A stretch of 64,000 nt of DNA from Labilibaculum antarcticum (GTDB lineage Bacteria > Bacteroidota > Bacteroidia > Bacteroidales > Marinifilaceae): NCBI RefSeq assembly GCF_002356295.1, contig NZ_AP018042.1, forward strand, positions 558,001 through 622,000, in the 5' to 3' direction. Both the position numbers and the translations under genes were made by a program. The notes under the pieces were generated by a model. The model was not told the origin of the DNA, did not search any database, and saw only the letters and a list, made by a program, of their open reading frames with translations. This document shows, piece by piece, positions 2,902-28,220 of the stretch (its first letter is position 1; every line of letters begins with the position of its first letter).

Positions 2902-4494
2902 CTACCAGCCATAATTTTGAATTAGACTTGTGTTAGATGAAAGTGCATTAAAATGTATAGGTAAAATATAAAATTTATCAGTAATGGCATCTAGAGTAAT
3001 TTTTCTAACAGTTCCACCACTAACATCCCAGTTAAGCTCAATTTCATCTTTTAGCCTACCTGTTCTCTGACAATCATAAAAGTAATGTCCTTCATATACT
3101 AATTCCCATTTTCTTTCCTTCCAAATAGCTTCTCTTAACTCTTCTTTAGAAATTGGCAGCTCAATTAAAGGCTGTCCGGCTCTTTGCTTCACTTCATTAA
3201 TTCCAAAAATAGTATTGTTATCAGGAGCACCATTTGCTTCATTTAATGCTTCAGAATGCATAAGTAACACATCTGCATAGCGCATATATACAGTATTATC
3301 GCCATAATCACCAGAACCAAGAGCACTAATTGATGGATTGTCATAATCACTAGCAAATTTCCAAACCTGAGGACGTAAGAAATTACCCGAACCATAGTTT
3401 ATTGTATCCCCACTATTATCAACATAACTAGTTAAATATGTAGTACTAAACCTGTTATCAGATTCTCCATTAGTATCAACCCACTGATCAAAGAAACTTT
3501 TATTAGAAAAAGCTTGTTTCCATGCATAAGGTGTAATATCAGCTCCTCTTATACCCAATCTGGCAGCAGCTTGCGTTCCTTCTCCAGTAACACCTGCTAT
3601 ACTAGACTCTAAATATTGAATTGAAAAAATAATTTCTTCGTTATTTTCATTTTCATTTTTAAAAATATCGGCAAAATTTGGTTCTAAAGCATATGGACCG
3701 TTAGTAATTAATTCTGCACATTTTTCTGCAGCTAAAGCCCATTTAGAATCATCACCAGGATCTAAGGTTCCTGATGTATAATTATATTGCAAACCTGCTT
3801 GGGTTAAGTAAACTTTTGCTAGAAGTGCAGTAGCAGCCCCTTTTTTGGCTCTTCCGTTTTCAACACCATTTGCAAATGAAGCCTCAGGTAAATTGGCTTC
3901 TGCAAATTGCAGATCTTCAACTATAAAATCATACACTTCGCTTCTATCTACTTGTTTTAAAAATTGAGATTCAAAAACAGATTCATCTGCTCCCTCTAAA
4001 GGCGTAACAGCATCTTGAATTGAACTTGGAACAACAGTTACTAATGGTATGTGACCAAACATTCTTACTGTATTAAAGTATACCATTGCTCTAATATACT
4101 TCACCTCACCTAATAACTGATTCTTTAAGTCATCTTCTAATGAAGAATTCTCTAATACTGAAATCATCGAATTAGCTGTTCCAATAATTTTATAGCCTTG
4201 CGTCCAAAGTGCCCATAAACCCCCTGTATTATCAGTATATGTCAACGTATTGAAATTTTGATCCCAAAAATGACCTAATGAACCAGGTAAGGCTTCACTC
4301 AACATAAATTGTTGATACCAATAATTATTATTTTGCAATCCATCATAAACTCCTATAACGCCAACAATTGCATCGTTTTCAGTTTGAAAAAAGTTTTCCG
4401 GAGTAACAGCGTCATACACTTCTTCTTCTAATACATCCTCACAAGAAAAGAGTAATAATACTGTTGCTAATAATATAAATATATGTTTCATCAT
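2902..4494 (-). CDS. SusD/RagB-family outer-membrane glycan-binding lipoprotein
   Basis: A 530-residue protein that starts with a lipoprotein signal peptide (LLLFSC, Cys18) and has the SusD layout: an N-terminal part of helical repeats (residues about 40-340) and a C-terminal SusD_RagB part ending with the typical LWKERKWELxYEGHYFYD-like segment near residue 470 (here KERKWELVYEGHYFYD) and a final LIQNYGW. SusD proteins sit on the cell surface as a lid on the SusC transporter and select the oligosaccharide. The gene starts 14 bp after the stop of the SusC gene, so the two are co-transcribed and form a cognate pair. The substrate is not readable from sequence, but the sulfatases and GH2 enzymes around it point to a sulfated galactan. 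Confidence 0.96.
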   Translation of the reverse strand: MMKHIFILLATVLLLFSCEDVLEEEVYDAVTPENFFQTENDAIVGVIGVYDGLQNNNYWYQQFMLSEALPGSLGHFWDQNFNTLTYTDNTGGLWALWTQGYKIIGTANSMISVLENSSLEDDLKNQLLGEVKYIRAMVYFNTVRMFGHIPLVTVVPSSIQDAVTPLEGADESVFESQFLKQVDRSEVYDFIVEDLQFAEANLPEASFANGVENGRAKKGAATALLAKVYLTQAGLQYNYTSGTLDPGDDSKWALAAEKCAELITNGPYALEPNFADIFKNENENNEEIIFSIQYLESSIAGVTGEGTQAAARLGIRGADITPYAWKQAFSNKSFFDQWVDTNGESDNRFSTTYLTSYVDNSGDTINYGSGNFLRPQVWKFASDYDNPSISALGSGDYGDNTVYMRYADVLLMHSEALNEANGAPDNNTIFGINEVKQRAGQPLIELPISKEELREAIWKERKWELVYEGHYFYDCQRTGRLKDEIELNWDVSGGTVRKITLDAITDKFYILPIHFNALSSNTSLIQNYGW

Positions 4495-4508: not shown

Positions 4509-7505
4509 TTAAAAATTGACCTGAAATCCTACAGTAAATGATCGTGGATTAGGATAGGAATTTCTATCAACTCCAAATGTATTATTACCTGGTGTTGAAT
4601 TAACGTCAGGGTCAAAACCAGAATACTTAGTAATTGTGAAAACATTTTGAGCACTAAAATATAACGAGGCATTCTCAAAAACACCAAATTTTGGTAATGT
4701 ATAACCTAAACGAATATTCTGTAATCTTAAATAACTTCCATCTTCTACCCGAAGTCTCTGCTTACTAAATTCAGTTTCCCCTGTAAGTCTAGGGTATTTC
4801 GCAGTAGGATTACTTGGTGTCCAAGTATTATCAATTAATTTCGTTGATAAATTAGTTCTAATTATCTTAGTGCCCTCCAAATATGAAGAAGTTCCATTAT
4901 ATATTTCATTCCCTTGAACACCATAAAAGGAAAGATCTAATGATAGCCTTTTATAAGAAAAATTAGCGCTAACTGCATATGAAAAATCTGGATTAGGATC
5001 AAAAATAATTCCTAAATCATCACCATCTATTACACCATCTTCATTCATGTCAACTGCTCGTTCATCTCCTACAGATAAACCGTTAATTGGATTTCCATCA
5101 CTATCTGAATAAGCATCTAGCTCTTCTTGATTCTGAATGATTCCATCACTAAAATAACCTCTTTGAACGCCTAACGACTCTCCTATTTTCCATGTTTGAG
5201 TAGCATCTCCAACTAAGCTAACAATTTCATTTTTGTTTAAAAATAAATCTGTTTTTATACTAGCTTTAAAATTATCGTTGTCTACTATACTAGTATTAGC
5301 CGAAATTTCAAATCCTTTATTTTGCAACTCCCCAGTATTTAATAATGCACTACTAAAACCAGAAGTTTCAATTAAACTAACACTTAAAAGAAGATCTGTA
5401 GTTGTTTTTTCATAGTAATCAATAGTTAAATCAACTCTCTTAAATAACTTAGCATCTAGGCCTATATTGATACTTTTGGTAGTTTCCCACCTTAAATCAG
5501 AATTCGCAAGTCTAGTTGCAGACACACCTGATTCAATAGCAGTTCCTACAGGATAATTAGCTAAACCAAAAACTGCCAATGATTTCTGTAGTCCAATATT
5601 TTGATTTCCTGTTTTCCCCCAACCTACTCTCAATTTTAATCTGTTAACTACATCTTTAGTATTTTCCATGAAATCTTCATTAGAAACTACCCAAGCACCA
5701 GATGCTGCTGGGAAAAACCCCCATTTATTTCCATCACCAAATCTTGAGCTACCATCATATCTGGCAGAAACAGAAACCAAATACTTACCATCCATAGAAT
5801 AATTAACACGACCTAAATAAGATAACAATTGCCATTTATTTTTACTGGAATAAGGCGTTCCAAATTCAGATGCAGCATTAATATTATTATATTCAAATGC
5901 ATCTGTAAAAAAATTTGTTGCAGAAACAGAAACAGATTCATAAGACTGTTCTTCATATGTTGTACCCGCAACTACATCTAGCCTATGCTTATCATTAAAA
6001 ACATTGTTATAAGAAAAAATGTTTTCAGTCACGAAGTGAGAAGTGTTTCTATTCACAATAGAAGCTCTTCCATTTACCAATCCTCCGGTAATTGTTGTAG
6101 TAGGATTATAAGTACCTTGTTTATAGTTATTAAAATCTCCTCCGAAACTTGTTTTAAAACTGAAATTTTTGAAAGGCTTTACAGTTACGTTAAAATTTCC
6201 CAAGACATCCCAATTTCTTGCTCCATTTGTCAACTCATTTACCGTTGCCAGAGGATTTTCTATTCCCTGAGCACCAGGTAAGTTGTTAGCCGTATATGTC
6301 CCGTCTTCATTATAAACAGGTAATGCAGGCGACATTTTAATGGCTTGATTAATGGTTCCTCCCCCACCTTCACCAGAAGTGTTTTCTCCGGAATCGTTTG
6401 TGTTTTCATGAGTAAGATATACGTTAACTCCCGTAGTTAACCAAGGTGTTATATCCATTTGATTTGCTAAACGCACACCATATCTTTTATAATCACCACC
6501 TTTTATAATTCCCTGATGATCAAGATAGTTAAGAGAGACACTCGTACGGCTATTTTCAGTACCACCCGAAATATTAATTTGATGACTCTGCACATAACCA
6601 GTTCTGGTTATTTCATCAAACCAATCAGTTCCTTCTCCTAAAGATGATGGAGATGGTTGGGTTATAGAACTACCATTATAGAACACTTCACTTGGATCCG
6701 TACCTCCTGCAATCTCCCAATCTGTGAAGAAAGTAGCAAACTCATTCGCATTCATCAAATTAAGATCTGTACCAATATTTTCAACAGTAAATCTTGTAGA
6801 GTATGAAATTTTTGGCTTACCAACTTTTCCTTTTTTAGAAGTCATCAGAATAACCCCATTTGCCCCTCTAGAACCATAAATTGCTGTACTAGAAGCATCT
6901 TTTAACACTTCTATAGATTCAATATCTCCAACAGAAATATTATCTATATTATCTAAAGGTATACCATCAACAACATATAAAGGAGATGAACCACTATTTA
7001 CTGAATTTTGTCCACGAATAACAATTGATGTACCACCGCCAGGAGCAGCTGAATTAGTTCTTACCTGCACACCTGTTGCTTGTCCTTGTAATGCTTGCCC
7101 AACAGATTGAACGGGTCTAACTGTAAGTTCATCACTACTGACAGATGATATAGAACCAGTAAGGTCGCTTTTTCTTTGCGTACCATATCCAATAACGACT
7201 ACCTCTTCAAGTTTAGTAAAATCTTCTTGTAAGACTACTACAAGGTTTGTTTTTTCTCCTATTAAAATTTCTTGTGCAGTAAACCCTAAATAACTAAACA
7301 CTAGGGTTTCATTCTTAGCTACGTCTATTGTGTAATTTCCTCCAATATCCGTGGATGTTCCAGTAAACGTTCCTTTAACTACGATGGATACTCCAGGTAA
7401 AGGAATACTCCCTTCATCGGTTACTGTTCCAGAGACTGTGTTTTGTGCCCACAAAGGGCCAAAATTAAAACAGCATAGAATAAATGTCATTAAAATCAAT
7501 TTCAT
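4509..7505 (-). CDS. SusC/RagA-family TonB-dependent outer-membrane transporter
   Basis: A 998-residue protein with a signal peptide ending in LWAQ, a carboxypeptidase-D-like regulatory domain (about 23-100, VSGTVTDEGSIPLPGVSIVV), a TonB-box-like segment (LEEVVVIGYGTQRK, about 101-114), a plug with the hallmark SSTAIYGSRGANGVI near 205-220 and a long beta-barrel ending in aromatic FQVNF. It imports oligosaccharides across the outer membrane using TonB energy. It is the first gene of the susC-susD unit. Its promoter (7557-7617) carries the same regulator box and spacing as the sulfatase operon promoter near 19236-19291, so the hybrid regulator at 19461 very probably controls it. Confidence 0.97.
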   Translation of the reverse strand: MKLILMTFILCCFNFGPLWAQNTVSGTVTDEGSIPLPGVSIVVKGTFTGTSTDIGGNYTIDVAKNETLVFSYLGFTAQEILIGEKTNLVVVLQEDFTKLEEVVVIGYGTQRKSDLTGSISSVSSDELTVRPVQSVGQALQGQATGVQVRTNSAAPGGGTSIVIRGQNSVNSGSSPLYVVDGIPLDNIDNISVGDIESIEVLKDASSTAIYGSRGANGVILMTSKKGKVGKPKISYSTRFTVENIGTDLNLMNANEFATFFTDWEIAGGTDPSEVFYNGSSITQPSPSSLGEGTDWFDEITRTGYVQSHQINISGGTENSRTSVSLNYLDHQGIIKGGDYKRYGVRLANQMDITPWLTTGVNVYLTHENTNDSGENTSGEGGGGTINQAIKMSPALPVYNEDGTYTANNLPGAQGIENPLATVNELTNGARNWDVLGNFNVTVKPFKNFSFKTSFGGDFNNYKQGTYNPTTTITGGLVNGRASIVNRNTSHFVTENIFSYNNVFNDKHRLDVVAGTTYEEQSYESVSVSATNFFTDAFEYNNINAASEFGTPYSSKNKWQLLSYLGRVNYSMDGKYLVSVSARYDGSSRFGDGNKWGFFPAASGAWVVSNEDFMENTKDVVNRLKLRVGWGKTGNQNIGLQKSLAVFGLANYPVGTAIESGVSATRLANSDLRWETTKSINIGLDAKLFKRVDLTIDYYEKTTTDLLLSVSLIETSGFSSALLNTGELQNKGFEISANTSIVDNDNFKASIKTDLFLNKNEIVSLVGDATQTWKIGESLGVQRGYFSDGIIQNQEELDAYSDSDGNPINGLSVGDERAVDMNEDGVIDGDDLGIIFDPNPDFSYAVSANFSYKRLSLDLSFYGVQGNEIYNGTSSYLEGTKIIRTNLSTKLIDNTWTPSNPTAKYPRLTGETEFSKQRLRVEDGSYLRLQNIRLGYTLPKFGVFENASLYFSAQNVFTITKYSGFDPDVNSTPGNNTFGVDRNSYPNPRSFTVGFQVNF

Positions 7506-7556: not shown

Positions 7557-7617
7557 TAAATATAGTAAGTATTGAAATCTTAAAATTCTCAAATAAGGGG
7601 TCAAAATGTTGCTTTTT
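7557..7617 (-). promoter_or_regulatory. susC promoter with putative hybrid-regulator box
   Basis: Read on the minus strand: box GCAACATT (7612-7605), then TTTG starting 12 nt later, then TATATTTA (7564-7557), one base off the Bacteroidota -7 consensus TAnnTTTG. The box-to--7 distance is 40 nt, exactly as in the sulfatase operon promoter at 19236-19291. The spacer between TTTG and the -7 box is 25 nt in both, longer than the usual 19-21, so the TTTG may not be a true -33 element; activation by the regulator would then be needed. The surrounding 28 nt (7590-7617) also resemble 19320-19346. Confidence 0.65.
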
Positions 7618-7739: not shown

Positions 7740-8318
7740 CCTTTAGTTCTAATTTCAGTACCTAACTTCGCGTAATACTTTTATATCTACTGGGTATATT
7801 TCACCCGATGCTAAAGGGCCTGTATTAATAATTGAGGTTTTATCGTATTTAATTTCTACGATATCCAGTAGAGTTGTTCTCACAATTGCATTAAAACTAT
7901 TCAATCCTAAATCATCAAGTATCAATAGGTCTGCCTTTTCAATCTTTATTAATAGCTTGATAAAAGTGCCTTCGGTTCTAGAGAGTCTAATATCATCAAT
8001 AAATCAGCTATAATACAAGGTTGTGCAGCATCATGCAAGCTCGGTGTGCTAATGTTTGGGCAATATAACTCTTACCTTTTCCTTTAATCCTGTGATGATT
8101 AGATTCTCTTTTCGTTTTAAAAAATCAAATGATGCGAGGCGTTCCAGAACATTTCGATCAAGTGATCTACTTGTTGCATAATCAATATCCTCAACAGTGG
8201 CCAGATTTCTGAATTTGGCTGATACTTTTAAATTTGCGATTTTCTTATTGTATCTATATTCCCATTCCTGATCGACCAATAATGCAATAAGTTGATCGAT
8301 TATATAATCTTTATACAT
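7740..8318 (-). pseudogene. Decayed IS21-type istB (transposase helper ATPase)
   Basis: The N-terminal piece (8318-8049) reads as the start of an IstB protein, ending with NLIITG directly before the P-loop. A frameshift there breaks the gene: in the next frame the sequence continues as KGKGKSYIAQTLAHRACM, the Walker A region, then meets stops. A third stretch around 7985-7830 reads GTFIKLLIKIEKADLLILDD, the Walker B region of IstB. At least two frameshifts and several stops make it non-functional. No istA partner is visible. It lies immediately upstream of the susC promoter and marks an old insertion inside the PUL. Confidence 0.85.
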
Positions 8319-8350
8319 TCCCGTTTGCAGGGAGTTGTAATAGGTTTCAC

Positions 8351-8390
8351 TTTATCTGTTCTAACAGCTCTAGCTGTTAGAACAGATAAA
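8351..8390. repeat. Perfect 40-bp palindrome (19-bp arms)
   Basis: The arms are TTTATCTGTTCTAACAGCT and its exact reverse complement, separated only by CT. It sits between the istB remnant and a broken sulfatase. It could be two abutting transposon ends, or a strong transcription stop. There is no poly-T directly after either arm, so a mobile-element origin is at least as likely as a terminator. Confidence 0.85.
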
Positions 8391-8414
8391 CTGAGTATAA
8401 GAATTTACATGTAT

Positions 8415-8712
8415 TCATTTACCCCTTTTAATAAAAAAGTAAAAATTTTCACCATCTATGTTTTTTGGTTTTCGTAATTGACACAAATCTGCAAATGTTG
8501 GACAAATGTCATATAAAAAAAATTGCTTCCCAAGTACCCAATGACTTCCTATCGCAAGACCATTATCTGAAGTGAAAACAATAATGATATTATCATACAA
8601 CTTTAAATATTTGAATGATATCACCAATTCGATCATCCAGATGGCTAATTAACCCATAATAATCGAAATAGATGCTCTTATAATTTCCAGCGTTCTTGGC
8701 CATGGAGCTAGA
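8415..8712 (-). pseudogene. Remnant of an S1 sulfatase gene
   Basis: On the minus strand the segment around 8700-8600 reads AGNYKSIYFDYYGLISHLDD, the conserved stretch before the metal site of S1 sulfatases. After a frameshift near 8605 it continues LYDNIIIVFTSDNG, the metal-binding signature, and then DICPTFADLC. Only the middle of the enzyme is left: the formylglycine motif and both ends are gone. It lies directly after the GH2 gene at 8733 in transcription order, so the operon may once have carried another sulfatase that was destroyed by the event that left the istB remnant. Confidence 0.8.
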
Positions 8713-8732
8713 GTTTCATAACCAAACCTCAT

Positions 8733-17705: not shown

Positions 17706-19178
17706 TTAAAACGAAACCTGATCGAAAGTAAATATCTCAGATGGAGTTCTGGCTTCTTTTAAGATACGCTCCATATCTTTTACTACTTTAGGATATTTTT
17801 CGGCTACATTATTTTCTTCTCCTAAATCTGTAGAAAGATCATACAATTCAATCGGTGCATCAGGATGCTTTAAAACATTATACTTTACAGCTTTCCATTT
17901 CCCTTTTCTAATCGCTTGCCTTCCTCCATTTTCATGGAACTCCCAGTACAAATATTCGTGTTGTTTTTGTTCTTCTGATTTGTTTAATAATGTTGGTAAA
18001 AAAGAAATACCATCTAAATTATCAGGAACATTTACTCCAGCTATTTCTGAAAATGTTGGAAAAACATCCCAAAATGCAGAAATCAAATCTGTTTTACTAC
18101 CAGCCTGTATTTTACCTGGCCATCTTACCATCATAGGAATACGAATACCACCTTCGTATAAATCTCTTTTAAATCCTTTAAGAAGTCCATTACTATCAAA
18201 ATATCTAGGATCTGCACCACCTTCTGTATGCGGGCCATTATCTGAAGTAAACACTATAATAGTATTATCTTCTATTCCCAAGGCTTTCACTTTATCCATG
18301 ATTTCCCCCACTTGTTTATCCATAATTTCTATCATAGCAACAAAAGCAGCGTGTCCTTCCTTTTGAGACTCATAATATCCCAATCTATAATTAGGCCCAT
18401 CATCCGTACCTTTAAATTGCTTTTCAGGCAAATATTTACCTCTGTATTTAGCCATAATGGAATCTGGCGCAATTAATTCGGCATGTGGGATAATAGTTGG
18501 CACATACATAAAGAAAGTTGTGTCTTTATTTTTTTCTAAAAACTCAAGAGCTTTTTCTTGAATTAAATTTGGTGCATATTCTTCTCTTTTGTGTCCCGAA
18601 TTACCCTTTAAAACTATAGAATCTCTATTTGACCACAAATGGTACGGATAATAATTATGACCTAAACGCTGACAGTTATACCCGTAAAAAACATCAAACC
18701 CTTGCTTAACTGGATCTCCTTCGGAACCTGGATAACCTAAACCCCATTTACCAAATGCACCCGTTACATAACCTCCTTTTTTAAGGGTTTCGGCTAAAGT
18801 ATAAGTATCATCAGGTATTGGATATTGACCTTCTGGTTGAATTTCTTTATTCCCCCTAACAGGTGTATGCCCCGTATGCATACCTGTCAGCAAAGCAGAC
18901 CTCGATGGTGCGCATACTGTACTACCTGCATAATGTTGTGTGAAAACCAGTCCTTGTGAAGCAAGTTTGTCAATATTCGGAGTGCTAAATTGTTTTTGGC
19001 CGTAACTACTCAAATCTCCATAACCAAGATCATCAGCAAGAATATAGATGATATTTGGCTTTTTCTCGTTTTCATCAGCTAAAGCCAATTCTCCACCTGC
19101 TTTATTGTATTTAATCGCACATGAGAACATACACATGACAGCAATAGCTGATAATAAAATTTGAATACCTTTTTTCAT
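17706..19178 (-). CDS. S1 family sulfatase, lipoprotein, first gene of the regulated operon
   Basis: A 490-residue protein with a lipoprotein signal (CMFSC, Cys20), ADDLGYGD at 48-55, the formylglycine motif C-A-P-S-R with Cys89, GNKEIQPEGQ near 108 and the metal-binding TSDNGPH segment near 313. It belongs to the same subgroup as the partial gene at 1-828 and the gene at 41556-42965. It is transcribed away from the hybrid regulator gene, from a promoter with the GCAACATT box, and opens the operon that continues with the GH-A hydrolase and the two GH2 enzymes. Its role would be early desulfation of the polymer or of released oligosaccharides. Confidence 0.94.
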   Translation of the reverse strand: MKKGIQILLSAIAVMCMFSCAIKYNKAGGELALADENEKKPNIIYILADDLGYGDLSSYGQKQFSTPNIDKLASQGLVFTQHYAGSTVCAPSRSALLTGMHTGHTPVRGNKEIQPEGQYPIPDDTYTLAETLKKGGYVTGAFGKWGLGYPGSEGDPVKQGFDVFYGYNCQRLGHNYYPYHLWSNRDSIVLKGNSGHKREEYAPNLIQEKALEFLEKNKDTTFFMYVPTIIPHAELIAPDSIMAKYRGKYLPEKQFKGTDDGPNYRLGYYESQKEGHAAFVAMIEIMDKQVGEIMDKVKALGIEDNTIIVFTSDNGPHTEGGADPRYFDSNGLLKGFKRDLYEGGIRIPMMVRWPGKIQAGSKTDLISAFWDVFPTFSEIAGVNVPDNLDGISFLPTLLNKSEEQKQHEYLYWEFHENGGRQAIRKGKWKAVKYNVLKHPDAPIELYDLSTDLGEENNVAEKYPKVVKDMERILKEARTPSEIFTFDQVSF

Positions 19179-19185
19179 ATATAGT

Positions 19186-19243
19186 TATATTTGAATTTCA
19201 CTAATGTGCTATAAAGTTTAACACATCAGTAAATTCAAATATA
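19186..19243. repeat. Imperfect inverted repeat with a -7 box at each end
   Basis: TATATTTGAATTT at 19186-19198 (plus strand) is repeated in inverse at 19231-19243; the similarity runs on for about nine more bases inside each arm (ACTAATGTG against ACTGATGTG). Both outer ends are perfect TAnnTTTG -7 boxes, facing each other. The right-hand one is the predicted -7 of the sulfatase operon. It lies just upstream of the sulfatase ATG and may be an operator or a leader structure. Confidence 0.75.
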
Positions 19244-19291
19244 CAGTTGAAATGAAAAATAAAAATACCAAAAGCGACCTATAAATGTTGC
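19236..19291 (-). promoter_or_regulatory. Promoter of the sulfatase/GH operon with hybrid-regulator box
   Basis: On the minus strand: GCAACATT (19291-19284), TTTG beginning 12 nt after it, a 25-nt spacer, and a perfect TAnnTTTG -7 box TATATTTG (19243-19236). Box-to--7 distance is 40 nt, the same as before susC. It would start an mRNA with a leader of roughly 50 nt before the sulfatase ATG at 19178. Confidence 0.68.
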
Positions 19292-19319: not shown

Positions 19320-19346
19320 AAAATGCAACATTACACCCCCTATTTG
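19320..19346 (+). promoter_or_regulatory. Second GCAACATT box in the divergent intergenic region
   Basis: GCAACATT at 19325-19332 on the plus strand is followed by a C-rich tract and TATTTG. These 27 nt match the susC promoter region (7590-7617 on the opposite strand) at most positions. With the box at 19284-19291 it forms an inverted pair 33 nt apart. It faces the regulator gene; I see no good -7 box 40 nt after it. Confidence 0.5.
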
Positions 19347-19436
19347 TCAGCATAATTACCCCTAAAAATAATCAGCAAGGCTAAAACATTCAGTAAACTT
19401 ATGTACTTTGCTTAAAATCTCACATCAGTCTATTAT

Positions 19437-19444
19437 GCAACATT
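19437..19444 (+). promoter_or_regulatory. Third GCAACATT box, just before the regulator start
   Basis: The same 8-mer ends 16 nt before the ATG of the regulator gene at 19461. At this place a bound activator would block rather than help transcription, so self-repression is a possibility. A single 8-mer could also occur by chance. Confidence 0.4.
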
Positions 19445-19460
19445 CTTAGTTAGAATATTT

Positions 19461-22400
19461 ATGGAAACTTTTAAAATCATAAAACTGTTTAGAAATCTCT
19501 TTGTCTTAACAACCTTACTATTAACTTCATTAACCATATTTTCACAATCTAAAACAATTAATTTTCGTAAATTAGATATTCATGGTGTATTATTTAATGC
19601 AAACGTTAGCACCTTGTTTGAAGATAGTTTTGGGTATTTATGGATAGGTAGTAATTCTGGCTTATACAAATATGATGGTCACAACATTACCGAATATCAA
19701 AATGATGTGTTTAATCCTTATTCTCTTCCAAATAATAATATAAATTCAATTTTTGAAGATGATTTTCATAATTTATGGATAGGTAGTGAAAGCTATCTAA
19801 TTACCTATAATAGAAAAAAGAACAAGTTTAAAGGCTTCTTAAAAAACAAAACTTCTATTGTTAAGAATATAACTAAAACTGGAAATATATGGGTTAGATT
19901 AGAAAATTATGGCTTGCTAAAAATTCAAACTAATGAGGATTTTAACAAAATAAATTTAGTATCTGAATTTACTCCTAAAATAAGTAAGGATATTTACAAA
20001 ATAGAGAAAACTGTAATTGCATTAATTGAAGATCGCTTGGGAAGAAATTGGATTGGAACAAATGAGGGTATTTTCATTCTAAATGCGAACGGCAAATTCA
20101 CTCCTACAAATTTTAAAGAAAAAATTGTAGGCATGAAACTTTTTGGTAATAATCAAATTATAACCATTACCCATAATGGCATGTATATTTTCGGGTATAA
20201 TAAATCGGATAGTAAATTAGAAATTCTTGAACATTATCCAAATATTTTAAATAATTTCAACTCAAATGCCACCTTAAGTACAATAGCAATTAACAAGAAA
20301 AACAATGCCCTTTGGATTGGTACAACAGATGGATTAATAAAAGCCAATAGAAAAAATAATAAATATCATTTTTCCTATTATTCAAACCATGCTAATAACA
20401 TTAACTTATTAAATAATAATATTACATCTTCAATCTTTGATACATATGGAAATCTTTGGGTTGGATCATCAAAAGGGGTAAATAAATATTTGGAAAGAAC
20501 ATCACTTTTTGAATATAATCAAATCACTACCGATAACAAATTAGCTAGCAATTTATATAGTGAAAATTACAGACATCTTTTAGTAGGGATGACCAATGGT
20601 CTATATAATTATGACAACAAAACTAAAACCAACTTAAAAATTGAAAATGATATTGGAGATGTAAGTATTATTAACAAGAGCTATGAAAAAAAAGAATTTT
20701 TTATAGCCGATAAATTAAGCATCTATAAGACTCAAAATTACAAACCTGATAAAACTAAGTTTGATTTAATGAAAATTAAAACTTACTCAAACAGAATTAA
20801 AGACATAGTCCCTATTAACAAAAACGAAGTATGGGTAGCAATTTGGGAACAAGGCATAGACATTATTAACAATGAAAATCCCTTGTCTGAATTTAAAAAA
20901 CAAATCCGAGACAAACTAAAAAACAATCATACTTCAACACTTTTATTAACTGGAGAAAATAAATTATGGATAGGCACTAGAGGTGAAGGATTATACATCG
21001 TAGATTTAGTTAATGAAAATTACAAACACTATCTACCAACATTAGAAAACGGTTTAACCTCTAATGCTATTTTAACTCTTCATGAAGATAAAAGTGGGAA
21101 TATTTGGATAGGAACCAGAGGTGGTGGTTTAAATATGTATGAAAAAAAACTAAAAATCTTTAAAAACTTCAATGATACCAATACTGCTAGTCCTAAAATT
21201 ATTTCTGCAATAGAAGAAGATATTAATGGTAATATTTGGATGAGTACTAGAGATGGTATTACGATGCTAAATTTAACAACAAAAAGATTTATGCCTTTTG
21301 GTGTTGAAGATGGAATAAATGAAAATCAATTTGTATTTAACTCTAGTAGTTCTAATGCACAAAAAACTATTTTATACTTTGGTTGTTCGGATGGTTTTTA
21401 TAGTGTATTCCCACAAAAACTAAGCACTCAAAATATTTTACCTTCTACAGTTATAACAAGTTTTTCTACACTTGGTAAAACCTTTAATAACAATTTAAAT
21501 AATACTGCAAATACGTCAAACGAAATAAATATATTTTCTGACAACCCAATTATTTTACCTTATGACCAAAATAACATTGCAGTTAACTTCTCCTCTTTAG
21601 ACCTAACTGCACCAAATAAAAACGAATATGCTTATAAATTGAAGGGACTTAATAATTATTGGGTATACACCAGTGCGTTTAATAGAAATGCCAATTATAA
21701 CGATCTTGCCCCAGGAACTTATACCTTTATGGTTAAAAGCTCTAATAGTGATGGGGTCTGGAACGAAGAACCATCAAAAGTAACCTTCACCATAGCCCCC
21801 CCCATTTGGAAAAGCACTTGGGCCATTTTAATCTATATTTTAATAGTATTATTAATAATATATATAAATGCCCTATTAATTAGAAGATGGTATTTATTGA
21901 AGAAAAATTTGGTGAGAGAAACCATAAGTAGAGAAAAAGATAATGAGCATAACAAAATGAAAATGGCTTTCTTTACAGATATTTCTCATGAGTTAAGAAC
22001 GCCATTATCCCTTATACTTGGAACCATTGAAAAAGTAGTCAAAGACAAAGAGTTTACTTTAAATCCCTTAAGTTCTCAGCGTATTTACAACAACGTACTA
22101 AGGATGCATCGCCTTATCAATCAAATTATGGATATAAGAAAATTTGATGAAGGAAAACTTCAATTAAATATCTCAAGAAATGATATTATAAGCGACATTA
22201 AAACCATCAAAAACGCCTTTAATGATTTCGCCAACAATTCGAATATAAAATATGATTTTATATCAAAAGAGAAAATACTTACAGGCTGGTATGATGTGGA
22301 TATTTTAGAAAAAATACTTTTTAATCTTCTATCAAACGCCTTTAAGTATACTAAGGAAAAAGGAGAAATAACCGTGACATTAAGCCTTATAAAACCAAAA

Positions 22401-23576
22401 GAGCCCTCAACTGATGAGCATAGTTTAAATGGTAATAAAATAAAATGTAGTGTTAGGGATAACGGTATTGGTATTCCAAAAAAGGATTTAAATTATATTT
22501 TTGACCGCTACTACCAAGCAACAAAATCACAAAGAAAACAAATTCCAGGAACTGGTATTGGCATGGAGCTTGTTCATAAACTAATTGAAAGGCACCATGG
22601 CAACATCATGGTTGAAAGTGAAGAACATGTTTATACAGAATTCACCTTTTATCTTCCAATTTATAAAAACAGATACCAGAAAAATGAGCTTATGGATAAA
22701 GGTATGCCGTTAAAGAGAAATTTCATTAAAGCTTCAGAATTTCAAGTTATCGACAAACCATCTAATGATTTTATTAACATTGAACAAAAAAAACAACATA
22801 AAAAATCAAAAATTCTTATTGTAGAAGACAATGATGATTTAAGACAAATGATTAAAGAAGAATTAAGTACAGAATTTAACATCATAGAAGCATCAGATGG
22901 AAAAGAAGGTTATGAAGTTGCATTAGAAGAAAAACCAGATCTTATTATAAGTGATATTTTGATGCCCATACAGGATGGTATTTCGATGCTTAAACAAATT
23001 AAGAAAAATCCTGAGTTTAATAACATTCCAATATTTATGTTAACGGCTAAAAACTCTAGCGAATCGAAAATTGAATGTTTGAGTCTTGGAGCTAATGATT
23101 ATATAGAAAAACCTTTTAGTTTAGATTTTTTAAAATGGAAATTAAAAAACACTTTTAAAACAAGACAAGACCTTAAAGTTAAATATAGCAAACTAATAAC
23201 TACGGCTCCTATAGATATTCAAGTAGATTCAAATGATGAGAAATTTATAAAAAAAATCATTAAAATTATTGAAGACAACATGAATAATAACATTTTGAAT
23301 GTTGAATTTCTAGCATCAGAAATAGGTATGAGTAGAGCAAATCTTTACAGAAAAGTGCAAACAATTTTAAATGATACACCTATAAATTTCATTAAAACCA
23401 TTAAACTAAAAAGAGCCGCACAATTATTAGAGCAAAACAAAATGTACATTTCTGAAGTTGCTTACATGACCGGTTTTAATAATCAAAAGTATTTCAGTAA
23501 ATGTTTTAATAAAGAATATGGGATAAGTCCAACCGAATACATTAAACAAAGCGAAGTAACCAATAAAGAAAGCTAA
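19461..23576 (+). CDS. Hybrid two-component system protein (HTCS): sensor kinase, receiver and AraC regulator in one chain
   Basis: A 1371-residue protein. After a signal peptide (TIFSQ) come many propeller repeats (about 30-690, repeated LWIGT/IWIGT motifs), a Y_Y_Y domain (about 700-780), one membrane helix (about 785-810), a HisKA domain with phospho-accepting His843 in DISHELRTP, an HATPase domain (NLLSNAFKYT, GTGIGMELV), a receiver domain (about 1115-1230) with Asp1165 in IISDILMP and an AraC-type DNA-binding domain (about 1270-1365). HTCS proteins bind a specific oligosaccharide in the periplasm and switch on the neighbouring PUL. It is divergent from the sulfatase operon; GCAACATT boxes before that operon, before susC and before this gene are its likely binding sites. 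Confidence 0.97.
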   Translation: METFKIIKLFRNLFVLTTLLLTSLTIFSQSKTINFRKLDIHGVLFNANVSTLFEDSFGYLWIGSNSGLYKYDGHNITEYQNDVFNPYSLPNNNINSIFEDDFHNLWIGSESYLITYNRKKNKFKGFLKNKTSIVKNITKTGNIWVRLENYGLLKIQTNEDFNKINLVSEFTPKISKDIYKIEKTVIALIEDRLGRNWIGTNEGIFILNANGKFTPTNFKEKIVGMKLFGNNQIITITHNGMYIFGYNKSDSKLEILEHYPNILNNFNSNATLSTIAINKKNNALWIGTTDGLIKANRKNNKYHFSYYSNHANNINLLNNNITSSIFDTYGNLWVGSSKGVNKYLERTSLFEYNQITTDNKLASNLYSENYRHLLVGMTNGLYNYDNKTKTNLKIENDIGDVSIINKSYEKKEFFIADKLSIYKTQNYKPDKTKFDLMKIKTYSNRIKDIVPINKNEVWVAIWEQGIDIINNENPLSEFKKQIRDKLKNNHTSTLLLTGENKLWIGTRGEGLYIVDLVNENYKHYLPTLENGLTSNAILTLHEDKSGNIWIGTRGGGLNMYEKKLKIFKNFNDTNTASPKIISAIEEDINGNIWMSTRDGITMLNLTTKRFMPFGVEDGINENQFVFNSSSSNAQKTILYFGCSDGFYSVFPQKLSTQNILPSTVITSFSTLGKTFNNNLNNTANTSNEINIFSDNPIILPYDQNNIAVNFSSLDLTAPNKNEYAYKLKGLNNYWVYTSAFNRNANYNDLAPGTYTFMVKSSNSDGVWNEEPSKVTFTIAPPIWKSTWAILIYILIVLLIIYINALLIRRWYLLKKNLVRETISREKDNEHNKMKMAFFTDISHELRTPLSLILGTIEKVVKDKEFTLNPLSSQRIYNNVLRMHRLINQIMDIRKFDEGKLQLNISRNDIISDIKTIKNAFNDFANNSNIKYDFISKEKILTGWYDVDILEKILFNLLSNAFKYTKEKGEITVTLSLIKPKEPSTDEHSLNGNKIKCSVRDNGIGIPKKDLNYIFDRYYQATKSQRKQIPGTGIGMELVHKLIERHHGNIMVESEEHVYTEFTFYLPIYKNRYQKNELMDKGMPLKRNFIKASEFQVIDKPSNDFINIEQKKQHKKSKILIVEDNDDLRQMIKEELSTEFNIIEASDGKEGYEVALEEKPDLIISDILMPIQDGISMLKQIKKNPEFNNIPIFMLTAKNSSESKIECLSLGANDYIEKPFSLDFLKWKLKNTFKTRQDLKVKYSKLITTAPIDIQVDSNDEKFIKKIIKIIEDNMNNNILNVEFLASEIGMSRANLYRKVQTILNDTPINFIKTIKLKRAAQLLEQNKMYISEVAYMTGFNNQKYFSKCFNKEYGISPTEYIKQSEVTNKES

Positions 23577-24776: not shown

Positions 24777-26321
24777 ATGAGCAATAAAACCGTAATTTCC
24801 TTTACAAACGCATATGTGCAATATCTTAATCAGATTCTACTTGAAAACATTAGTCTTACTGTTAAATCGGGTGAACAATGGGCCGTAATCGGAGAAAGCG
24901 GCTCGGGGAAAAGTGCTCTTTTAAAAACAATTGCAGGCAAATTCCATATCTCAAAAGGAGAATTCACACATCCATTTCTGGATGAAAAAGCTAAAAAAAA
25001 GAAACAAGTTCTCTTTACCTGGAAAAATTTAATCAGTCAGGTTTCGCCAAAGCATAACTTCACAAATCTATCCAACACCACCATTTTTTACTACCAACAA
25101 CGCTTTAACTCTTCCGACTCGGAGGACACTTTAACCGTTGAGCAGTTTCTTTCACAAATAGAATCATCAACTTCGGCCATAACATGGACGTTAAATAAAG
25201 TAATGAATCGCCTGCATCTTCAAGAATTGAAAGACAAACATCTGATTAAACTTTCCAATGGAGAAACAAAAAGACTACTTATCGCCAAAGCATTACTAAA
25301 AAATCCCTCTCTGATCCTATTAGACAATCCACTCACCGGACTCGATATAGATACACGAAAGGATATCAATAATCTGATCACTGAAATATCAGAATCTGGT
25401 ATTAGTATCATTATGGCGACCTCACCAAACGAAATACCAGAGGCAATTACTCACATTGCTGTTCTTGAGGATGGAAAAATCGCAAAAATCCTTCCCCGAT
25501 ATGAATTCAAACCGGAAAATTTACATTTCTCAGCCATATCGGAAATTGATAGCCAAGAACTAAAAAAACTACTGGCGTCAAGCAGGCAAGAAAATTTTGA
25601 AAACATCGTTAAAATGAAAAATGTAGTGATTAAATATGGTGAAAACACCATTCTTGATCATGTAAACTGGACTATAAAGCAAGGTGAACGTTGGGCATTA
25701 CTTGGCCACAATGGCGCGGGAAAATCAACTTTACTAAGCTTAGTCAACGGAGATAATCCGCAGGCATATGCCAACAACATATCTCTTTTTGATGTAAAAA
25801 GGGGAAGCGGTGAAAGCATATGGGATATTAAAAAGAAAATCGGTTTTGTCTCTCCTGAATTCTTTCAATACTTTCCTAATGGAAATTCTTGCCTGCAGGT
25901 AATTGAATCAGGTTTTTACGACACATTAGGTCTCTTTCGGAAATCAAATCCTGGAAAAGTTGAAATTGCAAAACGATGGATGGAACTCCTAGAAATTGAG
26001 AACTCTGCCACCAAACTATTCAAAAATGTATCGGCAAGTACTCAACGATTGTGCTTGCTTGCCCGTGCGCTGGTAAAAAATCCGCCATTGCTGATTTTCG
26101 ATGAACCAACTCAAGGCTTGGACAGCCATCAACAAAATAATTTCAAATACATTATTGAAAAAATATGTGAACACAGCAATGTAAGTTTAATATATGTGAG
26201 CCATTACTATCACGACATACCGAAAAGTGTTCAAAACATTTTAAAGTTAGAAAAGGGAAAACAAATTGAATATTTAGAAAAGGACATTTTACAAATTGAA
26301 AAAACGGGGTTCAATCAGTAA
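24777..26321 (+). CDS. Tandem ABC ATPase, ModF/PhrA-like
   Basis: A 514-residue protein with two ABC ATPase domains and no membrane segments. Domain 1 has Walker A GESGSGKS (39-46), signature LSNGETKR and Walker B LILLDNP, with Asn where the catalytic Glu is usual. Domain 2 has Walker A GHNGAGKS (about 310-317), a degenerate signature (VSASTQR) and Walker B LLIFDEP. The length and layout match ModF-like proteins, sometimes annotated as molybdate ABC ATPases, whose partner and substrate are poorly known. It stands alone on the plus strand beside the tRNA gene and looks like core genome rather than part of the PUL. No permease is next to it. Confidence 0.8.
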   Translation: MSNKTVISFTNAYVQYLNQILLENISLTVKSGEQWAVIGESGSGKSALLKTIAGKFHISKGEFTHPFLDEKAKKKKQVLFTWKNLISQVSPKHNFTNLSNTTIFYYQQRFNSSDSEDTLTVEQFLSQIESSTSAITWTLNKVMNRLHLQELKDKHLIKLSNGETKRLLIAKALLKNPSLILLDNPLTGLDIDTRKDINNLITEISESGISIIMATSPNEIPEAITHIAVLEDGKIAKILPRYEFKPENLHFSAISEIDSQELKKLLASSRQENFENIVKMKNVVIKYGENTILDHVNWTIKQGERWALLGHNGAGKSTLLSLVNGDNPQAYANNISLFDVKRGSGESIWDIKKKIGFVSPEFFQYFPNGNSCLQVIESGFYDTLGLFRKSNPGKVEIAKRWMELLEIENSATKLFKNVSASTQRLCLLARALVKNPPLLIFDEPTQGLDSHQQNNFKYIIEKICEHSNVSLIYVSHYYHDIPKSVQNILKLEKGKQIEYLEKDILQIEKTGFNQ

Positions 26322-26611
26322 GATTTGACCAATAATACCGATTGGATAAATTCGTAGCCTACATCTCGCCATGCTAAACATAGCTTTCTACATTTATTCC
26401 ATAGGTATTAGACCACGTTTTTTCTCGCTCTCCATGGCTCACAAATTATTTAAAATGGTCTAAAAAGCACATCTATAGTTATTTCCAAAAAACAATGGAT
26501 AACCTAAAAAAATCGTTTGACGGTTCTCAATCATTTTTCTCATAATATCTTTTGTAATCAACTATTTTGTTCTATTTTTGTCCCGCACAATTATCCTATT
26601 GGATATCATCT

Positions 26612-26696
26612 GGAGGGATGACAGAGTGGCCGATTGTGCATGCTTGGAAAGCATGTGTACCGCAAGGTACCGGGGGTTCGAATCCCTCTCTCTCCG
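26612..26696 (+). tRNA. tRNA-Ser (anticodon GGA)
   Basis: The 85-nt sequence folds as a class II tRNA: acceptor stem GGAGGGA with TCTCTCC, an anticodon stem CATGC/GCATG with loop TTGGAAA (anticodon GGA at 26646-26648), a long variable arm (GTACC-GCAA-GGTAC) typical of serine tRNAs, and a T-arm with TTCGAAT. Discriminator base is G. CCA is not encoded. A terminator follows 24 nt later, and a tyrosine integrase gene lies 310 bp downstream, the usual arrangement for an island inserted at a tRNA gene. Confidence 0.96.
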
Positions 26697-26719
26697 CAAC
26701 TTAGGAATCATCCTAAACC

Positions 26720-26756
26720 AAAAGACTGTAAATCTACTGATTTACAGTCTTTTTTG
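26720..26756 (+). terminator. Rho-independent terminator after tRNA-Ser
   Basis: AAGACTGTAAATC (26722-26734) pairs perfectly with GATTTACAGTCTT (26739-26751) around TACT, and a T-run follows. It ends the tRNA transcript. Confidence 0.9.
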
Positions 26757-27005
26757 TTTTTCCCCTATTCATTCTACTACAAATAATATCAATAGGAGTA
26801 AGAACTCTCCGGTGAACAGATTTCAAAATCCACTTTGTTCACCAAAACCAATATAACAAACTGTATCAAAACAGGTTAAACCGCACAAACTTCAAAAATA
26901 AAATTTTAATTGTACTTGATTTTTAGTAAATTTATTAAACATCATTCAATAATTAATCAAAATTCTGAAAAATTCACATTTAGTATGAATTGATTTTATT
27001 AAAGC

Positions 27006-28220
27006 ATGAACACCTTTTCAGCACTTAATATCAGTTTCTTAATTAGAAAGAATCGCTCTAATAAACAGGGTGAGGCTCCAATCTATATGCGTATCTCTGT
27101 AGATGTGGGACGTGTGGAAATTGCAACTGGCAGATACATTAATTTCCAAAATTGGAATAGCAAATTGAATAAAGCTTTTCCTAAAAAGAAAGGTGGTATT
27201 CAAATCAATCAATTTTTAGATGCTCTTAAAAATGCAATCTATGAGCATCATACTGAAATGGTAAAAAATGGTGAATTTATTTCTGCTAAAAAATTGAAAG
27301 CTCGGTTTCTTGGCCTTGATGAAGACAAAAAAACTCTGATACAGGTATTTGAATACCATAACAAGCAAATTTCAGAGTTAATCGGCATTTCATATGCTCC
27401 TGCTACTATTCAAAGGTATATTACGACATTAGATCATATTAAGAGTTTTCTGAAACATCAATACAAGCTAACGGATATTGCTTTATTCCGGATTAAGTAT
27501 TCATTTATAGTCGATTTGGATCACTATTTTAAAACAGTTCGGAAATGCAATAACAACACCACTTATAAGTATATCAAAAATTTAAAAAAAGTAATTAATA
27601 TTGCGATCAAAAATGATTGGCTAAACAAAGATCCTTTTGCAAAATACAAATCAACTTTAGTTGACGTAAAAAGAGAATATCTAAACAAGGTAGAATTACT
27701 AAAACTTCAAGACTTAAAACTATCGACACCTCGATTAGATATTGTTCGGGATATATTTATATTCTCCTGCTATTCAGGATTAGCATATATTGATGTTACA
27801 AATCTTACAACGAATAACATTAGAAATGGTATAGATGGTAATCTTTGGATTATTACACAACGAAAGAAAACCAAAGTACCTTCTAACATTCCTCTGCTTC
27901 CAAAAGCAATACAGCTAATTGATAAATACAAATTGTTCCCTGCAAAAAAAACAGAGGAGCATATTCTCCCACATTTGAGTAACCAAAAATTAAATGCTTA
28001 TTTAAAAGAACTGGCAGACTTGGCTTCTATAGACAAGAACTTAACCTTCCATATAGCCAGACATACTTTTGCAACTACAGTAACCTTAGCCAATGGTGTG
28101 CCTATTGAGTCTATTAGTTCTATGCTTGGTCATAAAAATATTAGAACTACTCAAATCTATTCGAAGGTGGTCAATGAAAAAGTCAGCAAAGACATGAACA
28201 AACTCAGAAAAATATTATAA
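27006..28220 (+). CDS. Tyrosine recombinase/integrase (Bacteroidota type)
   Basis: A 404-residue site-specific recombinase: an Arm-type N-terminal domain (about 1-85, with the common start LNISFLIRKNR), a SAM-like core-binding domain (about 105-205) and a C-terminal catalytic domain. Visible catalytic residues are His349 and Arg352 in HIARH, His376 in LGHKN and the nucleophile Tyr385 in IYSKV. The first catalytic Arg, normally in a TGLR-type motif, is replaced by Ala in SGLAYID, as known for the IntDOT-like group of Bacteroides. The gene sits 310 bp past tRNA-Ser, which suggests that it catalysed insertion of a genomic island there. No excisionase or relaxase is next to it. Confidence 0.94.
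   Translation: MNTFSALNISFLIRKNRSNKQGEAPIYMRISVDVGRVEIATGRYINFQNWNSKLNKAFPKKKGGIQINQFLDALKNAIYEHHTEMVKNGEFISAKKLKARFLGLDEDKKTLIQVFEYHNKQISELIGISYAPATIQRYITTLDHIKSFLKHQYKLTDIALFRIKYSFIVDLDHYFKTVRKCNNNTTYKYIKNLKKVINIAIKNDWLNKDPFAKYKSTLVDVKREYLNKVELLKLQDLKLSTPRLDIVRDIFIFSCYSGLAYIDVTNLTTNNIRNGIDGNLWIITQRKKTKVPSNIPLLPKAIQLIDKYKLFPAKKTEEHILPHLSNQKLNAYLKELADLASIDKNLTFHIARHTFATTVTLANGVPIESISSMLGHKNIRTTQIYSKVVNEKVSKDMNKLRKIL

Follow-up and report, generated by a model that had tools for sequence, protein, structure and literature searches.

Hybrid two-component system (HTCS) proteins control many Bacteroidetes polysaccharide loci. In a 64,000-nucleotide stretch of the Labilibaculum antarcticum genome, referred to here as the window, two promoters near an HTCS gene carry the same 8-mer, GCAACATT, at the same distance from their -7 boxes. 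This arrangement raises the question of whether the 8-mer is a regulatory site, which regulator would use it, and how that regulator would be positioned relative to the promoter.

A shared box at the susC and sulfatase promoters

The regulator gene (19461..23576, plus strand) encodes, according to domain matches, a single chain that combines a propeller sensor, a histidine kinase, a receiver and an AraC-type HTH (Reg_prop, Y_Y_Y, HisKA, HATPase_c, Response_reg and HTH_18), with the receiver and AraC parts at about residues 1110-1371. This architecture, together with its location near susC/susD and carbohydrate-active enzymes, identifies it as a hybrid two-component system. The first of the two promoters precedes a susC-like gene with a TonB-dependent receptor plug (4509..7505, minus strand), which is followed by susD (2902-4494). 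The second precedes a sulfatase gene (17706..19178, minus strand), the first gene of a presumed sulfatase/FN3/GH2 operon. Decayed remnants occupy the interval from susC to the GH2 gene (7758-8717, minus strand), including a sulfatase C-terminal piece at 8418-8717 with 38% identity to a relative's sulfatase-like protein; the neighboring susC promoter is intact. Other stretches within these remnants resemble what we take to be an IS21-type IstB ATPase.

The susC promoter reads GCAACATT-N40-TATATTTA (7612..7557, minus strand), with the 8-mer, hereafter the box, at 7605..7612 and the -7 box at 7557..7564. The sulfatase promoter reads GCAACATT-N40-TATATTTG (19291..19236, minus strand), with the box at 19284..19291 and the -7 box at 19236..19243. 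An earlier note, made from the letters of the window, had reported the same 8-mer exactly 40 nt before the -7 box at both promoters, and pattern searches of the window and the genome confirm this. The pattern GCAACATT-N38..42-TATATTTR matches twice in the window, compared with no match in 100 shuffles. The complete 5.72 Mb genome holds the same two exact matches and no others at spacings of 38-42, while the reversed-pattern control gave one. Both promoters also carry, as described, TTTG at nucleotides 12-15 after the box, followed by 25 nt.

We considered whether the shared arrangement could reflect coincidence within 64 kb, or the shared descent of two recently duplicated promoters. Taken alone, the box is no more frequent in the window than chance predicts (4 copies against 4.04 expected), and the pattern itself was selected with the data already in view. 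All four copies are nevertheless located within the two promoter regions (susC and sulfatase/HTCS). Against shared descent, the 40-nt spacers agree at 16 positions, a level that shuffles also reach (mean 12.9, with at least 16 in 799 of 5000), consistent with the earlier note's remark that the sequence between the box and -7 is otherwise different; identity averages 0.34 over the 171 promoter pairs compared across related loci. Against chance, a profile trained on other genomes and described below (R1) ranks these two promoters first and second among the scored candidates of the genome. With the shuffles, the genome search, the spacing counts in related loci and this held-out profile all opposing it, we rejected the explanation by chance or duplication, whose probability we regard as negligible.

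A box at fixed distance from the -7 box accompanies one HTCS clade

At E <= 1e-200, the regulator has no match in 55 other genomes of the window genome's own family. Its first 480 residues match at E <= 1e-60 in 16 of 397 Flavobacteriaceae genomes, a sample taken evenly across the family to which Algibacter lectus belongs, with the A. lectus genome included. Whole-protein BLASTP identity between these homologs and the window's HTCS ranges from 45 to 71%. Conservation is concentrated in the AraC domain, which averages 77% identity to the window's compared with 47% for the sensor; the AraC domains of 97 other HTCSs average 41%. To the right of the HTCS gene, the window encodes a two-domain ABC ATPase and a tyrosine recombinase with an Arm-DNA-bind_5 domain (24777-28220, plus strand). 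This recombinase neighbor, and the combination of no match in the genome's own family at E <= 1e-200 with close homologs in another, suggest that the locus may have arrived laterally. Since regulator and operator are both found outside the family of the window genome, their wiring may travel with the locus.

We compared about 40 kb around each of the 16 homologous HTCS genes (37 and 31 kb in two cases) with the first 30 kb of the window, calling genes in the related loci by a simple ORF rule. The sulfatase is 67-80% identical to the window's in 15 of the 16 related loci, and the susC genes, where found, are 27-35% identical. Across all 17 loci, we counted 57 copies of GCAACATW in the 119 kb that are noncoding, compared with 35 in 539 kb of coding sequence, a 7-fold difference in density (0.478 versus 0.065 per kb). 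A same-strand gene begins within 200 nt downstream of 51 of the noncoding copies; the remaining six were excluded from later counts. An exact TAnnTTT[AG] follows at N40 after 14 of these 51 boxes (12 without the window) and at N39 after five, where 0.20 would be expected per spacing. Because the 17 loci are related by descent, these counts are not independent events, and the five N39 promoters may belong to one clade and represent a single event. At N51, one helical turn further along than N40, an exact TAnnTTT[AG] follows five of the 51 boxes (0.20 expected), and two of these five face the HTCS gene.

In every locus with this HTCS (17/17), at least one gene has a box in the 200 nt upstream of it, and 15 of the 17 contain one or more promoters with an exact -7 box at N39/N40, the exceptions being G056 and G293. 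The same box as at the window's susC promoter thus recurs in related loci, including at orthologous sulfatase promoters: the arrangement box-N40-TAnnTTTG is present in all five other loci in which an orthologous sulfatase diverges from the HTCS gene. The refuting condition named in the earlier note, absence of the pattern from orthologous loci, thus did not apply at the sulfatase promoter. We classified 32 boxes as promoter-type, of which 20 have an exact -7 box at N39-41 and 12 do not. In 19 of the 32, the -7 box of Bacteroidetes primary promoters, TAnnTTT[AG], is found at N39/40. Across these loci, the sequence pattern, its spacing and its conservation go together with this HTCS clade, and the 16 related loci lend support to the earlier suggestion of selection on the spacing.

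A probable second half-site at the place of a -33 element

For a closer view of the DNA between box and -7, we aligned on -7 the 19 promoters that had been chosen by box and -7 alone, which leaves columns -27 to -23 unselected. These columns read T-27 in 18 promoters, G-26 in 15, A-25 in 17, G-24 in 15 and A-23 in 18. The resulting word, TGAGA, is the start of a degenerate second copy of the box located 21-22 bp after the first, with its G 26 nt before the -7 box, so that the box itself would be half of a tandem operator. In agreement with this, self-similarity of the box over offsets 9-44 peaks solely at offset 22 (mean 3.55 of 7, compared with 1.3-2.7 elsewhere), and tandem GCAACAT copies exactly 22 bp apart precede the HTCS gene in five loci. 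A direct repeat about 21 bp apart is thus found upstream of PUL operons and is conserved at loci with the same regulator, as in a tandem operator.

At the window's susC promoter, half-site 2 (GAGAATTT) lies at 7583..7590 (minus strand), at offset 22 and 26 nt before the -7 box. At the sulfatase promoter it is degenerate (GGTATTTT, 19262..19269, minus strand, offset 22) and scores 5 of 7; the G057 copy (AATAAAAC) is poor with the same score. Degeneracy of half-site 2 is general at target promoters (TGAGAATTT), with a mean of 3.16 of 7 over the 32 promoter-type boxes. Its best match is 26 nt from -7 in 20 of these 32, and in 18 of the 23 boxes where both elements score well. In all five N39 promoters, half-site 2 is also one base nearer the box, and its distance to -7 therefore stays at 26 nt.

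The earlier note had read the TTTG 12 nt after the box as a promoter element shared by both promoters. This TTTG would then be a -33 element, and the promoters would be ordinary two-element promoters with a 25-nt spacer; the word does occupy the same place in both window promoters, and a -33 TTTG with variable spacing has been described for Bacteroides (PMC7366714). Scored at that place in the 19 promoters with -7 at N39/40, the -33 TTTG of Bacteroidetes primary promoters is present in three, two of which are the window's own, and in 6 of the 32 promoter-type boxes, whereas TGAGA is nearly invariant. The TTTG consists of the three bases preceding the GAGA part of TGAGA together with the G of half-site 2. 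By our own arithmetic from the published centers, a canonical TTTG would moreover start about 24 nt before -7 rather than 29, and a Flavobacterium promoter that has no -33 element has been described (PMC2483708). We therefore rejected TTTG as a conserved -33 element, with TGAGA as the conserved word, and consider an ordinary -33 promoter quite improbable here.

The regulator gene is preceded by a different type of site. In the window, a box facing the HTCS gene (19325..19332, plus strand) lies head-to-head with the box at 19284-19291 across a 33-bp gap, and has a second half-site (TCAGCATA) at 19347..19354 (plus strand, offset 22). A further copy of GCAACATT (19437..19444, plus strand) lies 16 nt before the HTCS start and has no exact counterpart at that place in related loci. 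A head-to-head pair in the divergent region, with a gap of 33-36 bp, is found in all 12 loci that have both exact boxes, and the gap sequences are unlike each other when compared by eye. Of 19 HTCS-facing boxes, we kept 13 as primary, leaving out five second tandem copies and the 19437 copy. No exact -7 box is found at N39-41 after any of the 13, or after any of the full set of 19. Their half-site 2 is good, averaging 5.38 of 7 for the primary boxes with five perfect copies. The upstream region of the HTCS gene itself carries the site in 13 of the 17 loci, with no exact HTCS-facing box in the other four. The extra copies that the earlier note had placed before the regulator gene (19325 and 19437) are thus present, but the 19325-type box belongs to another type of site that lacks a -7 box at N39-41.

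Taken as a tandem, direct-repeat operator with two half-sites, of which GCAACATT is half-site 1, this arrangement very probably serves the adjacent HTCS, as judged from the sequence comparisons above. The earlier proposal that the box marks the regulator's likely site and activation geometry gains from the clade association, the noncoding enrichment and the sharp N40 (N39) spacing; its TTTG element does not stand.

A candidate regulon and the specificity of the box

For the sequence-only profile R1, we used 17 promoters from 14 other genomes, with the window genome excluded; its training promoters were chosen for an exact box and -7, and those columns are invariant by choice. A scan of the L. 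antarcticum genome, in which 150 of 9790 first-look candidates were scored, placed the susC promoter first among the scored candidates (39.6 bits), the sulfatase promoter second (26.8 bits) and a new site third (25.8 bits); the fourth match reached 15.9 bits (E 0.088). Over the window with filters off, the susC (39.7 bits) and sulfatase (26.8 bits) promoters again lead, followed by a match at 10.1 bits. The HTCS-facing boxes at 19325 (6.7 bits, E 0.77) and 19437 (7.6 bits, E 0.4) are at noise level.

The third promoter lies at genome positions 556765-556824 (minus strand; L138:16765-16824), 1.2 kb to the left of window position 1. It reads GCAACATT-N40-TAGTTTTA with GAGA at N14, and precedes a sulfatase gene, the first in a run on one strand that includes sulfatase, GH43, GH97 and GH2 genes. 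The profile proposes a candidate regulon for this HTCS, and adds a third operon beyond the window. A second carbohydrate-active run inside the window (30923-55018, minus strand; GH31, GH109, GH2, sulfatase and metallophosphoesterase) contains no exact GCAACATT and no strong R1 match. In six relatives scanned with R1, we obtained 25 matches at E <= 0.02, including eight training promoters; 11 of the 17 non-training matches read box-N40-TAnnTTTG (with at most one mismatch in the box), a fixed spacing that is partly imposed by the profile itself.

The box could also be a real, conserved operator of some other regulator, for example a Crp-like or stand-alone AraC activator, rather than of the adjacent HTCS. 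The link between box and HTCS is drawn from sequence, and some R1 matches are far from the HTCS gene, at about 50-87 kb (G061), 175 kb (G441) and 1.4 Mb (G180). To examine specificity, we used a same-genus control of 57 regions around other HTCS genes in six genomes, many of whose loci are mutual orthologs. The box is found in none of 36 susC promoters (those of 44 susC genes with enough upstream DNA) and none of 58 HTCS promoters, 94 in total, and it occurs once in 109 kb of intergenic DNA at these loci. This single copy seems fewer than expected by chance, which a rough estimate puts at about seven for the intergenic DNA of these regions (L139-L195). A set of 40 other HTCS loci from Flavobacteriaceae contains the box six times in 51 kb, and the word is therefore not exclusive to this HTCS clade. 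One occurrence, at a different HTCS locus in G078 (L222), is a perfect direct repeat of TACAAATGTTGC (the box read from the opposite strand) with a 21-bp period, some 236 nt upstream of 11641 (plus strand); this suggests that another regulator there uses the same word. Against a regulator other than the adjacent HTCS stand the company of box and HTCS in 17 of 17 loci and its absence from the 94 paralog promoters, the tandem 22-bp design, which fits a dimer of an AraC-type HTCS, and the site upstream of the HTCS gene itself in 13 of 17 loci. We regard assignment to another regulator as unlikely and retain the adjacent HTCS as the probable user of the box.

Blind tests of how general this geometry is gave weak results. 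In the 57 same-genus loci of paralogs, the highest of the 480 cells for TAnnTTTG is that of period 22 (59 sites in 51 promoters); the preset statistic was reached by 37 of 1000 random-anchor sets, and by 47, 85 and 88 of 1000 in three other variants. In these variants, the leading cell for TAnnTTT[AG] has period 21 and a different distance. In the 40 Flavobacteriaceae HTCS loci, the top cells are also at other distances, and the preset statistic was reached by 89, 83, 262, 253 and 358 of 500 in five variants. When repeats were searched by period, the known spacing of 21 bp stood out (34 of 438 promoters, compared with 6-18 for other periods); these repeats include too few -7 pairs to fix a distance.

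A proposed operator and its relation to known systems

Based on these observations, we propose a model in which the periplasmic sensor would bind a glycan, perhaps a sulfated galactan to judge from the sulfatases and GH2 enzymes, leading to phosphorylation of the receiver. Two C-terminal AraC domains would then bind the two half-sites side by side. The G of half-site 2 lies 26 nt before the first T of TAnnTTT(A/G), approximately where the phylum's weak -33 element would lie, and half-site 2 as a whole (26 to 19 nt before -7) covers the place of the canonical TTTG. The downstream AraC domain may therefore replace the -33 contact by touching RNA polymerase, making up for the missing element, with transcription predicted to begin a few nt beyond the -7 box. 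Predicted targets switched on in this way are susCD, the sulfatase/GH2 operon and the third, sulfatase-led operon. The second, head-to-head site, which has no -7 box, could serve autoregulation or cooperative loading. A stricter rule can be formulated, which we put forward tentatively and consider somewhat doubtful: at HTCS-controlled promoters in general, half-site 2 would replace the -33 element at a fixed 26 nt from -7, and the head-to-head tandem pair would act as a paired operator for the cooperative assembly of two HTCS dimers tethered to the membrane, which would drive the divergent operon and regulate their own gene.

Activation by membrane-bound HTCSs at the unusual promoters of this phylum is little defined in the literature that we surveyed. 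The distance of both half-sites to -7 is nearly fixed across related loci, which offers a precise and inexpensive mutational test. In class II activation by AraC-family proteins, a tandem site abuts the polymerase site, as it would in our model. Unlike those systems, the present one involves a hybrid kinase anchored in the membrane and a polymerase acting at a non-classical promoter.

In the literature surveyed, we found neither this box nor a fixed distance from an HTCS site to -7; a letter search for GCAACATT(T) returned one oncology paper. Bacteroidetes primary promoters combine a -7 TAnnTTTG with a -33 TTTG (PMC7366714, Ryan et al. 2020). The promoters described here share the -7 box, as TAnnTTT(A/G), but differ in that TTTG is not conserved and half-site 2 covers the -33 place. 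Response-regulator fragments of the HTCSs BT4124 and BT4663 were tested on susC promoters by EMSA (mBio 2024, PMC11253607). These proteins have the same regulator architecture and act on target promoters of their own PULs; they are different HTCSs with different targets, and the part of that report considered here gives no distance to -7.

The closest parallel comes from Bacteroides, where HTCS operators were predicted as a direct repeat of two conserved sites averaging 21 bp apart and interpreted as binding a dimer on one face of the DNA (PMC3878776, Ravcheev et al. 2013). In both cases, the regulator is an AraC-type HTCS and the direct repeat lies upstream of PUL operons near the regulator gene. 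Compared with the part of that report considered here, the sites described here differ in the word itself (GCAACATT), in a period of 22 (21 in one group), in the degenerate half-site 2 at promoters, in the fixed 26 nt to -7 and in the head-to-head second site. They also differ in their hosts, which are Flavobacteriaceae and the window's genome rather than Bacteroides. Judging from these shared features, the operator proposed here would be of a kind already predicted for Bacteroides HTCSs.
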